From a virus: DNA of 23,112 bases. Below are positions 14,834-21,087 of the stretch, in pieces. Made by a program: the position numbers and the translations under genes. The stretch is from positions 1-23,112 of the IMG/VR virus record IMGVR_UViG_3300025120_000591; one strand, 5' to 3'. Position 1 is the stretch's first letter, and every line of letters starts with the position of its first letter. Below the pieces are notes generated by a model. That model was not told where the DNA came from and searched no databases. It worked only from the letters and a program-made list of their open reading frames with translations.

Positions 14834-14863
14834 TTGGCAACTTCATAAATTATTGTAAATTTG
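14834..14863 (+). promoter_or_regulatory. Promoter TTG-N19-TAAATTTG for the early operon
   Basis: TTG at 14834-14836 and TAAATTTG at 14856-14863 with 19 bases between, a full match to the Bacteroidota consensus. Expected transcript start near 14868 gives a leader of about 23 bases for the gene at 14891. All following genes up to 20674 could be transcribed from here. Confidence 0.65.
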
Positions 14864-16428: not shown

Positions 16429-16659
16429 ATGACAGAAGAAGCAAGAAATGCTGTTAATTGTTTTACAGAACTAATAGAAGAAAAAAAAAACATAAAAAAA
16501 AATATAATTGAAATGAATAACTATTTTGCATATAGTGGTAAACAAGAGCTTAATGACACACTAGTTTCTTTAATGCCTTCTTATAGAAACACAAAAGATG
16601 TTTCTATAAATAATGATATGACAAAATATATTTTAAAAGATTATAGAAAATTAAATTAA
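16429..16659 (+). CDS. Hypothetical early protein (76 aa)
   Basis: Starts 6 bases after the preceding stop. The first 28 residues are a charged helix, 'MTEEARNAVNCFTELIEEKK', followed by 'NIKKNIIEMNNYFAYSGKQE'. The remainder is polar with a basic end (KYILKDYRKLN). No membrane span, Cys pairs or recognised motif. Its position just upstream of the SSB-tailed gene suggests a replication accessory role, but I do not recognise the family. Confidence 0.6.
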   Translation: MTEEARNAVNCFTELIEEKKNIKKNIIEMNNYFAYSGKQELNDTLVSLMPSYRNTKDVSINNDMTKYILKDYRKLN

Positions 16660-16674
16660 ATAAATAAATAAATT

Positions 16675-16926
16675 ATGGCTGAAAAAAATTATGTAGCAAG
16701 TAGTATAAAAAAAGTTACTACACAATATGGGGACTTGTTCAATGCAAGTTTTAAATTAGAAGACTTGCAAAAGATTGCAAAGAGAGGTTGGTTAAATATT
16801 ACTATAGCAGAAAGAAGAGAGCCATCAGAAAAAGGAGCTACTCATTATGCTTATGAAAACACATATGAGCCACCAAAAGAAGTTACATCTGATAAAGCAC
16901 AAGAAGCAGACGACTTACCATTTTAA
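16675..16926 (+). CDS. Small ssDNA-binding-like protein with SSB-type acidic tail
   Basis: An 83-residue protein. Residues about 4-55 alternate hydrophobic and polar residues as in a small beta-barrel ('QYGDLFNASFKLEDLQKIAK', then 'GWLNITIAERREPS'). Residues 60-76 are a flexible, acidic/Pro-containing linker, and the C-terminus is Glu-Ala-Asp-Asp-Leu-Pro-Phe, very close to the Asp-Asp-(I/L)-Pro-Phe tip by which SSB proteins recruit partner enzymes. That tip and the placement just before the replication-protein gene point to an SSB-type role. The fold itself is not proven. The stop is followed by the structured RNA-like element at 16933. Confidence 0.6.
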   Translation: MAEKNYVASSIKKVTTQYGDLFNASFKLEDLQKIAKRGWLNITIAERREPSEKGATHYAYENTYEPPKEVTSDKAQEADDLPF

Positions 16927-16932
16927 CAATAT

Positions 16933-17023
16933 AAGGGGTAGATGAAGGCAACTTGCCAACCAAACCTAATCGGGAGTTTAAGAGCTTCCTGTTTTTAATT
17001 AAATTTATATCTACCCCTTTTTT
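16933..17023 (+). ncRNA. Candidate structured RNA R1 in the leader of the replication gene
   Basis: AAGGGGTAGAT (16933-16943) pairs perfectly with ATCTACCCCTT (17009-17019), an 11-bp closing stem that runs into TTTTTT. Inside it lie a small hairpin, GGCA/TGCC (16947-16950 with 16954-16957), and a second one, GGGAG/CTTCC (16972-16976 with 16985-16989, one G-U pair). The whole fills the gap between the SSB-tailed gene and the gene at 17046. The stem followed by a U-tract could act as a terminator, the inner part as a regulatory or protein-binding domain. No ORF of note inside. Confidence 0.55.
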
Positions 17024-17045: not shown

Positions 17046-17696
17046 ATGGCTAAAAGATTTACTGATACAGATAAATGGAAGAAAGGTTTTATGAAAAGTC
17101 TTTCTACTAAATACAAATTATTATGGTTATACATTGTTGATGATTGTAATCACGCAGGAGTTTGGGAAACTGATTTTGAAGTTGCTTCTATAAGAATAGG
17201 CAGCAAGATAAGTGAGAATGAAGCTATTAAGCATTTTGCAGAACACATAAGAATTTTTGATAATGGAGATAAATGGTTTATTCCTAAATTTATAGACTTT
17301 CAATATGGTCAACTTAATTCTAACTCTAGACCACATCAAGCAGTTATAAAGCTTATTGAAAAATATGACCTTTACAGCATTAAAGGCGTAGACAATATAC
17401 ACACTACAGATTCTCCTAAAACCTCTTTAAAACGCTTTAAAAAGCCTACCACAGAGGAAATACAATCATATTGTACAGAAAGAAAAAACAATGTAGACTG
17501 TATGAAGTTTTTTAATTTTTACGAAAGCAATGGTTGGAAGGTAGGTAAAAATGCTATGAAAGATTGGAAGGCATCAATAAGAACTTGGGAGTCAAATTCT
17601 ATAAACAAATCTAATTCGGATAGTAAAATAGGAAGTCAATTAGATTCTTGGAAAGGGGCAAGAGATATAATAATAAAACAGCAATTAAATAAATAA
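17046..17696 (+). CDS. DnaD/DnaT-like replication protein
   Basis: A 216-residue protein. The N-terminus 'MAKRFTDTDKWKKGFMKSLS' and following 'LWLYIVDDCNHAGVWETDF' resemble the winged-helix domain of phage replisome organisers. The C-terminal third contains a 'KFFNFYESNGWKVGKNAMKD' segment leading to WKASIRTW, the DnaT/DnaD-like element common in phage replication-initiator proteins that load helicase at an origin. The middle is basic (SLKRFKKP). It is bracketed by the two structured RNA-like elements, and it follows the SSB-tailed gene, so this is the core of the replication module. No helicase or polymerase is visible in the window. Confidence 0.72.
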   Translation: MAKRFTDTDKWKKGFMKSLSTKYKLLWLYIVDDCNHAGVWETDFEVASIRIGSKISENEAIKHFAEHIRIFDNGDKWFIPKFIDFQYGQLNSNSRPHQAVIKLIEKYDLYSIKGVDNIHTTDSPKTSLKRFKKPTTEEIQSYCTERKNNVDCMKFFNFYESNGWKVGKNAMKDWKASIRTWESNSINKSNSDSKIGSQLDSWKGARDIIIKQQLNK

Positions 17697-17704
17697 TATA
17701 ATTT

Positions 17705-17768
17705 ATTACGAGGGGGGGCATAAAGGCATAAGCCATAACAAGTTAATACACTTGCTCTCCCAAGTAAT
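17705..17768 (+). ncRNA. Candidate structured RNA R2, downstream of the replication gene
   Basis: ATTAC (17705-17709) pairs with GTAAT (17764-17768); next, seven G (17712-17718) pair with CTCTCCC (17755-17761) with two G-U pairs. Between them are hairpin GGC-ATAA-GCC (17725-17734) and hairpin CAAGT/ACTTG (17739-17743 with 17750-17754, 6-base loop). The result is a closing stem with two side hairpins, like R1. AAGGCA...GCCA occurs at the first hairpin in both. It fills the 87-base gap before the gene at 17784. Confidence 0.5.
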
Positions 17769-17783
17769 ATTTAAAATAATAAT

Positions 17784-20674: not shown

Positions 20675-20706
20675 AAATTGTTTTGTGGTTGATTGTAAGA
20701 AAAGTC

Positions 20707-20737
20707 AAGAGCTAAAAAAGTTTTTGGCTTTTTTTAT
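20707..20737 (+). terminator. Intrinsic terminator ending the early operon
   Basis: GCTAAAA (20711-20717) pairs with TTTTGGC (20722-20728) with one G-U pair and loop AAGT; flanking AAGA pairs partly with the following T-run, and TTTTTTTATTTT follows. Stop codon of the HTH gene is 32 bases upstream. Confidence 0.75.
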
Positions 20738-20766
20738 TTTATTTTATTTTTTTATTTTTTTTATTT

Positions 20767-20816
20767 CTGAAACTGCCCTGAAATTGCCCTGAAACTGCCA
20801 AGCCGTTGAAACTGCT
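20767..20816. repeat. 11-mer direct repeats CTGAAACTGCC
   Basis: CTGAAACTGCC (20767-20777), CTGAAATTGCC (20778-20788) and CTGAAACTGCC (20789-20799) follow one another without spacer; a fourth copy, TTGAAACTGCT, is at 20806-20816. An 11-bp period places copies on one DNA face, as for iterons or regulator sites. Confidence 0.75.
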
Positions 20817-20850
20817 AGGTATGTACATATAGCTATTGTGAAATTTATTT

Positions 20851-20920
20851 ACTATGCGTGCATAATATATGCGTGCATAATATATGCGTGCATAGTATTT
20901 TTTACTATGCGTGCATAGTA
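20851..20920. repeat. Iteron-like near-palindromes ATGCGTGCAT, four copies
   Basis: ATGCGTGCAT occurs at 20854-20863, 20869-20878, 20884-20893 and 20907-20916. The first three are spaced exactly 15 bases apart (unit ATGCGTGCATAATAT); the fourth follows 23 bases after the third. Each is ATGC-GT-GCAT, and the last extends to the 16-base element ACTATGCGTGCATAGT, a 7+7 inverted repeat around GT. Likely dimer binding sites. Confidence 0.82.
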
Positions 20921-21087
20921 CTTTTATATATATAGCTTTTTTAAAAATATATTATACAAAAATATAATATTGATTTTAAGCCTTTTTAAGCTGTTTTAGA
21001 CCCTTTTGGGTATATTGGTATTAAAAAAGCTTGTAAGTTCCTTAAAATAAAATTACTAGATAAGGACAAAATATTTATTGTTTTTGC

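Follow-up and report, generated by a model that had tools for sequence, protein, structure and literature searches.

Evidence for a new family of three-helix RNAs from marine Bacteroidota-type phages, with a divergent member in an uncultured viral contig

Our homologue searches and covariation analysis strongly support the existence of a new family of three-helix RNAs, here called R1, in marine phages of Bacteroidota-type bacteria; the R1 element in the window is a divergent member. The window is the whole stretch of viral DNA analysed, 23,112 nucleotides in length (IMG/VR record IMGVR_UViG_3300025120_000591, positions 1 to 23,112). The structured RNAs of uncultured marine phages have hardly been catalogued, and what is new here are covariance-supported RNA families with a clear anatomy that are absent from Rfam. 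If discrete RNAs are made from them, the question of what Bacteroidota phages use RNA for in early infection becomes a testable one. The features of the window are as follows.

16675 to 16926, + strand: upstream gene of 83 amino acids, putatively SSB-like by its acidic tip EADDLPF; no profile match
16933 to 17023, + strand: R1 from end to end, a divergent RNA of the new R1 family (fold z-score, model match and shuffle test)
16933 to 16943, + strand: 5′ arm of closing stem P1, AAGGGGTAGAT; in the family, P1 covaries at all nine modelled pairs
16947 to 16957, + strand: hairpin P2, GGCA-ACT-TGCC (in RNA, GGCA-ACU-UGCC); family P2 is GGCAATTTTGCC / GGGAATAATCCC
16972 to 16989, + strand: hairpin P3, GGGAGTTTAAGAGCTTCC, with the AAGA loop of the family (fold and alignment to the family)
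16995 to 17008, + strand: TTAATTAAATTTAT, a diverged version of the conserved block that precedes P1′ and reads TTAATATTAAATGTTT in the family (alignment)
17009 to 17019, + strand: 3′ arm of P1, ATCTACCCCTT (complementarity to the 5′ arm)
17018 to 17023, + strand: T6 run, a terminator-like feature of the window lineage (sequence)
17046 to 17696, + strand: downstream gene of 216 amino acids, uncharacterised protein family phrog_15768 (PHROGs)
17704 to 17769, + strand: F2, member of a second new structured RNA family (model match, fold z-score and P1 covariation)

Anatomy and gene context of R1 in the window

The two arms of P1 (16933-16943 and 17009-17019) are complementary at 11 of 11 positions, with a twelfth, G-U pair possible, and enclose 65 nucleotides. 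P1, P2, and P3 are all present in order; a three-nucleotide GAA spacer separates P1 from P2, and P3 can be written as GGGAGUUUAAGAGCUUCC at 16972-16989. With its flanks the element has a predicted energy of -27.9 kcal/mol, against a mean of -17.1 kcal/mol for shuffled sequences (z -3.41; none of 200 dinucleotide shuffles was as good), and the fold z-score of R1 alone, without flanks, is -3.72. The sequence-only reading had described a perfect 11-bp closing stem around some 65 bases with two inner hairpins, all of which is seen in the sequence and in the fold. It had also placed a U6 tract after the stem; a T6 run is indeed present, but its first two T residues pair with the 5′ AA of P1 and only four lie free beyond the stem. 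The G+C-rich stem followed by a U run is a feature that the window copy shares with intrinsic (rho-independent) terminators.

R1 lies 26 nucleotides before the ATG at 17046. On the + strand, its gene block is preceded by a single match to the promoter-like pattern TTG-N17..23-TAnnTTTG, which ends at 14863; the following match does not end until 21117. R1 therefore lies inside an apparent operon, and its earlier placement in mid-operon, 26 bases before the next gene, agrees with these measurements. In the window lineage the stem and U run may cause partial termination before the 17046 gene, in which case the genes after R1 would depend on read-through, since no further promoter is predicted. 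The DnaD/DnaT-like label first given to the 17046 gene found no confirmation: its product has no Pfam or NCBIfam match and no meaningful PDB match, and matches only PHROGs of unassigned function.

Two further features of the window were recorded. A small protein family with the motifs YF.YSG and NDM[ST]KY is encoded at 16429-16659 and has homologues near R1 in many contigs; NCBIfam gave no match for two of its members, and Pfam and PHROG gave none for the window member. Near the end of the gene block, a 403-nucleotide AT-rich intergenic region (20675-21077) with inverted repeats containing GCGTGCATA could be a replication or regulatory site.

Discovery and consensus of the R1 family

Relatives of both genes flanking R1 served as the starting point for the family, those of the 83-residue SSB-like gene marking the equivalent position in other phages. 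In phages related to the window this gene is often followed by a G-rich/C-rich hairpin, the contents of which differ from phage to phage: plain small loops in some and a P2-P3-AUUAAAUGUUU core in others. The same core is also found in L008, at a quite different place and with an unrelated closing stem. Pattern scans of IMG/VR, the contigs of which are uncultured and may be fragments, gave more than 80 homologues of R1, with 57 distinct members in the model alignment. A covariance model built from a 16-member set gave 84 matches; the E-values from this and the other models built in this analysis are approximate only.

The family RNA is about 70-90 nucleotides long and has the order P1 - P2 - A-rich joint - P3 - UUAAUAUUAAAUGUUU - P1′. 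P1 may be of any sequence and spans 9-24 bp; P2 is GGGAAUAAUCCC, GGCAAUUUUGCC or GGUUAAUAAUGCC; and P3, for example AGGUGUAAGAUACCU or GGGUGUAUAAGAGCAUCC, has the loop AAGA and is followed by UUAAUAUUAAAUGUUU. The carriers are marine viruses of Bacteroidota-type bacteria.

Covariation supports a conserved RNA fold

RNAalifold, applied to an unguided MAFFT alignment of 16 members, recovered P1, P2, and P3 unaided, and for 12 of the 19 pairs at least one sequence had both partners altered. When the structure was written out explicitly, pairing held in 90.6% of cells; the corresponding figures were 80.3% for shuffles and 40-54% when the partners were slid. Across the 57 distinct rows, two-sided compensatory changes were found at nine of nine modelled pairs in P1, six of six in upper P3, and three of four in P2, a total of 308 such changes against a shuffled mean of 89, with none of 500 shuffles reaching 308; this alignment was fitted to the structure, so that the unguided result is the less biased witness. 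The P1 seed sequences, moreover, were picked for having a stem. The arms of P1 at different loci are not related by point changes, and the pairs of this helix therefore reflect repeated selection for pairing rather than the history of substitution. The sequence-only reading had named covariation in the closing stem as a check on its proposal, and the homologues with compensating changes in P1 favor an RNA.

On the sense strand, G-U pairs outnumber A-C mismatches by 113 to 16 (58 to 2 in P1 alone), which points to the RNA of the gene-sense strand as the selected molecule. This bears directly on the idea that R1 acts at the level of DNA, for example as a hairpin origin or packaging site. R1 is usually present in a single copy and often adjoins DNA-replication genes, including those for DNA polymerase A and a DnaA C-terminal-domain protein, as such an element might; however, the G-U/A-C asymmetry is that of one-strand selection as RNA, and at every site examined the element is oriented like the genes around it. 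We reject a DNA origin on the asymmetry, and consider a DNA-level element of any kind scarcely credible.

The window copy is a divergent member

A narrow first model missed the window copy (9.2 bits, E=7.2). With a broader model, built afterwards and with the window copy left out, the best match within the window falls at the exact place, 16935-17017, yet is weak (18.4 bits, E=0.2). The 65 nucleotides between the arms of P1 align to the family better than 1000 of 1000 dinucleotide shuffles, and the nearest relatives of this enclosed sequence are in L062, L196, and L171. Other hairpin types from the SSB site do no better than shuffles against the family; the type B, C, and D hairpins found there and the L060 hairpin were ruled out as members by this test. 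The window copy carries, in order, GGCAA..UUGCC, CCUAAUC, GUUUAAGAG, and UUAA..UUAAAU, and has AAAUUUAU in place of the conserved AAAUGUUU strand before P1′. Comparison of its P3 with GGGTGTATAAGAGCATCC in L062 shows a compensatory A-U against U-A change. Its site, just after the SSB-like gene, is common to L017/L059, L062, L171, L230, and L137, and a pattern search for intermediates between the window and the family gave only the near-identical L002 among the matches listed. Taken together, these results identify R1 of the window as a divergent member of the R1 family.

The sequence-only reading knew of no RNA family that R1 matches, and we likewise found none in Rfam or the open-access literature. 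Searches of the window and seven loci holding other members against Rfam 15 (4227 models) gave no relevant match, even at E<=1. The mir-929 match (E=0.24) lies elsewhere in the window, away from R1, and the Termite-leu and Plastid-psbM matches on L274 (4478-4551) lie outside its R1 element. A text search of the open-access literature with the conserved 14-mer found no paper. A blastn search of INPHARED with a family member returned chance matches only, and tblastn searches with the SSB-like and NDMSKYK proteins found no isolate. The family model found no R1 member in the Cellulophaga phages phi14:2, phiST, phi40:1, and phi17:1, the Flavobacterium phages lillamy and mymlan, or the crAss-like cr108_1; weak matches in phi40:1 (E=0.33) and phi17:1 (E=0.53) both have no conserved block, and the latter lies inside a coding gene. 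Pattern matches in bacterial genomes came from many phyla without order, and the 37 that were scored with the family model all gave E-values of 1.6 or more.

Genomic sites of R1

The 26 large viral contigs each have one match at E<0.01, and a second match (E=0.012) is present in just one of them. In the SSB group there are four further contigs without R1, and four of 21 more contigs of this group carry it. Carriers comprise large polymerase-bearing contigs and smaller ones such as the window; the DNA polymerase A of one R1-carrying contig is closest to those of crAss-like phages.

The start of P1 lies no more than about 18 nucleotides after a stop codon, or overlaps it, in about two thirds of distinct members. 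The genes 5′ of R1 are unrelated: besides the SSB-like gene and several small genes of unassigned function, they include one for a family A DNA polymerase (L259; Pfam E=3e-66) and one for a second polymerase-like protein, of 664 residues and with tblastn matches to phage DNA polymerases (L229). Runs of five or more U follow P1 in at least 14 of 61 distinct members, about a quarter.

These placements would suit an elaborate terminator or 3′-end stability structure, the core of which would have no function beyond folding. The usual position right after a stop codon, the 9-24 bp of P1, the U runs, and the plain small-loop hairpins of related phages at the SSB site are all consistent with this. 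In contrast to an intrinsic terminator, however, R1 has a 65-nucleotide interior that is structured and conserved in sequence; strict conservation of the core is more than a terminator loop requires, a U run is missing from about three quarters of members, and contigs usually have a single copy despite the many operon ends of a phage. A bare terminator is therefore unlikely, since the core is conserved and most copies are without the U run, and we regard the terminator or stability reading as a whole as improbable. That R1 recurs at changing positions in the genome, usually as a single copy and with a stalk of free sequence, suggests selection for an RNA function and not an incidental terminator.

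In another group of contigs R1 lies downstream of a promoter-like TTG-N-TAnnTTTG sequence (6 of 58 upstream regions, against a background of 1.2%, in about three independent groups), and there it precedes an NDMSKYK small gene or a gene for a DnaA C-terminal domain. A layout of promoter, leader, element and gene is seen in L138, L240, L245, L292, and L318. In some lineages a Bacteroidota-type promoter stands before R1, and a U tract may come after it. The protein directly downstream of R1 in L292 and L318 has 102 residues and carries the DnaA C-terminal (domain IV) helix-turn-helix (PF08299, E=1.3e-7).

A cis-acting intercistronic regulator, with the fold itself or a bound protein or ligand controlling the passage of transcription or translation into the next gene, would account for this layout. 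It would also suit the window, where R1 stands in mid-operon 26 nucleotides before an ATG and P1 with its U tract would be an attenuator terminator ahead of the 17046 gene, and it would suit the NDMSKYK small gene, which in roughly half of distinct loci follows R1 directly or closely. However, this small gene is upstream in the window, the U tract is absent in most members, and the genes downstream are inconsistent (HTH, UDG, DnaA-C, DUF932, and small proteins). In L231, L254, and L196, which share neighboring genes and so count as one lineage, R1 fills the gap between convergent genes and has no sense gene downstream; R1 is therefore not simply the leader of one downstream gene. Because the genes downstream differ and one lineage has none in sense, family-wide control of a single downstream gene is unlikely, and we consider a cis regulator an unlikely, if serious, alternative. 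In the window lineage by itself, where the stem carries a U tract in mid-operon, R1 may act as an attenuator of the gene that follows.

Comparison with known RNAs

The putRNA elements of phage HK022, putL and putR, are phage RNA elements of about 70 nucleotides with hairpins, present in few copies per genome and transcribed early (PMC9378689), and R1 resembles them in size, hairpins, and copy number. By analogy, R1 might remain on RNA polymerase as nascent RNA and let terminators of the early region be read through. Early promoters stand upstream of both putL and putR (PMC9378689), and several members of R1 lie just downstream of promoters. However, putRNA consists of two side-by-side stem-loops that act in cis on RNA polymerase, whereas R1 is a three-helix RNA closed by P1, with a conserved 3′ strand; many members lie at the 3′ ends of genes or between convergent genes, where antitermination would make little sense, and some end in a U tract of their own. 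We consider antitermination of this kind distinctly improbable.

PreS (LPR1) of phage lambda is an RNA of about 88 nucleotides from between early genes that targets the host replication gene dnaN, and is an example of a phage small RNA tuning host replication through that gene (PMC12197685). It is Hfq-dependent and described from lambda, whereas R1 is a covarying three-helix family found across many phages. Among the structured RNAs of marine or Bacteroidota origin, some of which occur in phages, are manA, wcaG, PhotoRC-II, Ocean-V, 6S-Flavo, and Flavo-1 (PMC2864571); R1 and the seven member loci match none of these in the Rfam comparison. Conserved structured RNAs in bacterial 3′ UTRs are reported to be highly unusual (PMC2864571). 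The L17 downstream element is one such RNA (PMC2864571), and is like R1 in its place at the 3′ end of a gene; it is tied to one ribosomal-protein gene of Firmicutes, whereas R1 follows many different phage genes.

A possible small stable RNA

Among the roles first suggested for R1, the processed small RNA fits best, whereas a riboswitch-like or protein-controlled attenuator fits the family poorly, given the varied downstream genes, the many members without a U tract, and the three contigs without a sense gene. Precursor stems frame stable RNAs. We put at about even the chance that R1 is a discrete small stable phage RNA, borne on early mRNA and released at P1, with a trans-acting core; the parts that we infer are that the RNA is set free as a discrete molecule and that it works in trans. 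R1 would be transcribed within the mRNA of early genes, and P1, being free in sequence, would serve as a stalk for excising the core from the transcript. In copies with a U tract after the stem, such as that of the window, the RNA might instead be ended by leaky intrinsic termination at P1. A protein or a second RNA, at a distance from the parent mRNA, would be the target of the conserved core, which comprises P2, P3 with the AAGA loop, and the AAAUGUUU strand. The weak score of the window copy weighs against the small-RNA reading, as does the NDMSKYK gene downstream in roughly half of the distinct loci, which would suit a role in cis there. Among the family loci we found no conserved protein partner for R1.

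F2 and other hairpins at the SSB site

F2, at 17704-17769 in the window, has the anatomy P1 - AUAAA - GGC..GCC - joint - GUUAAUACU - P1′. The window copy is matched at E=4.6e-9 by a model built without it, and its fold z-score is -5.2. In P1 of F2, covariation is seen at 11 of 13 pairs, with 98.6% paired. In many polymerase-A-type contigs F2 comes in tandem with R1, directly on its 3′ side; in SSB-type phages, including the window, it follows the 17046-type gene. It is present in 16 of the 36 contigs searched, nearly always as a single copy and in some with weak scores; examples outside the window are in L336, L266, L010, L012, and others. We propose, tentatively and at somewhat less than even confidence, that R1 and F2 are two new stable RNAs, each usually present once per genome in the phages that carry it, that are cut by their variable stalks from early mRNAs and act in trans, their target being some conserved component of the host or the phage. 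Candidate targets under this reading are a ribonucleoprotein, RNA polymerase, a defence factor, or the replication machinery.

Hairpins other than R1 also recur after the SSB-like gene. Those of L065-L068, L072, L102, L108, L113, L123, and L125 have the conserved contents TTAGTAAT..CAGCAGTTATACTTTGTG..ATTACAATT, while in L076, L077, L104, and L106 the hairpin is tRNA-like, with GTGAGTTCAAGTCTCAC enclosed by a closing stem and a resemblance to a T-arm. Other recurrent loop contents at this site are GATAACAGACCATTG.. (L080, L112, L115, L131), GGTTCGGTGTCTACTTG.. (L063, L096, L101), and AACAAAGGTCAGGTTAATTCTTGAGCC (L089, L129). Several hairpins of the GATAACAGACCATTG, GGTTCGGTGTCTACTTG, and AACAAAGGTCAGGTTAATTCTTGAGCC types stand behind a TTTG/TATCTTTG promoter-like sequence.
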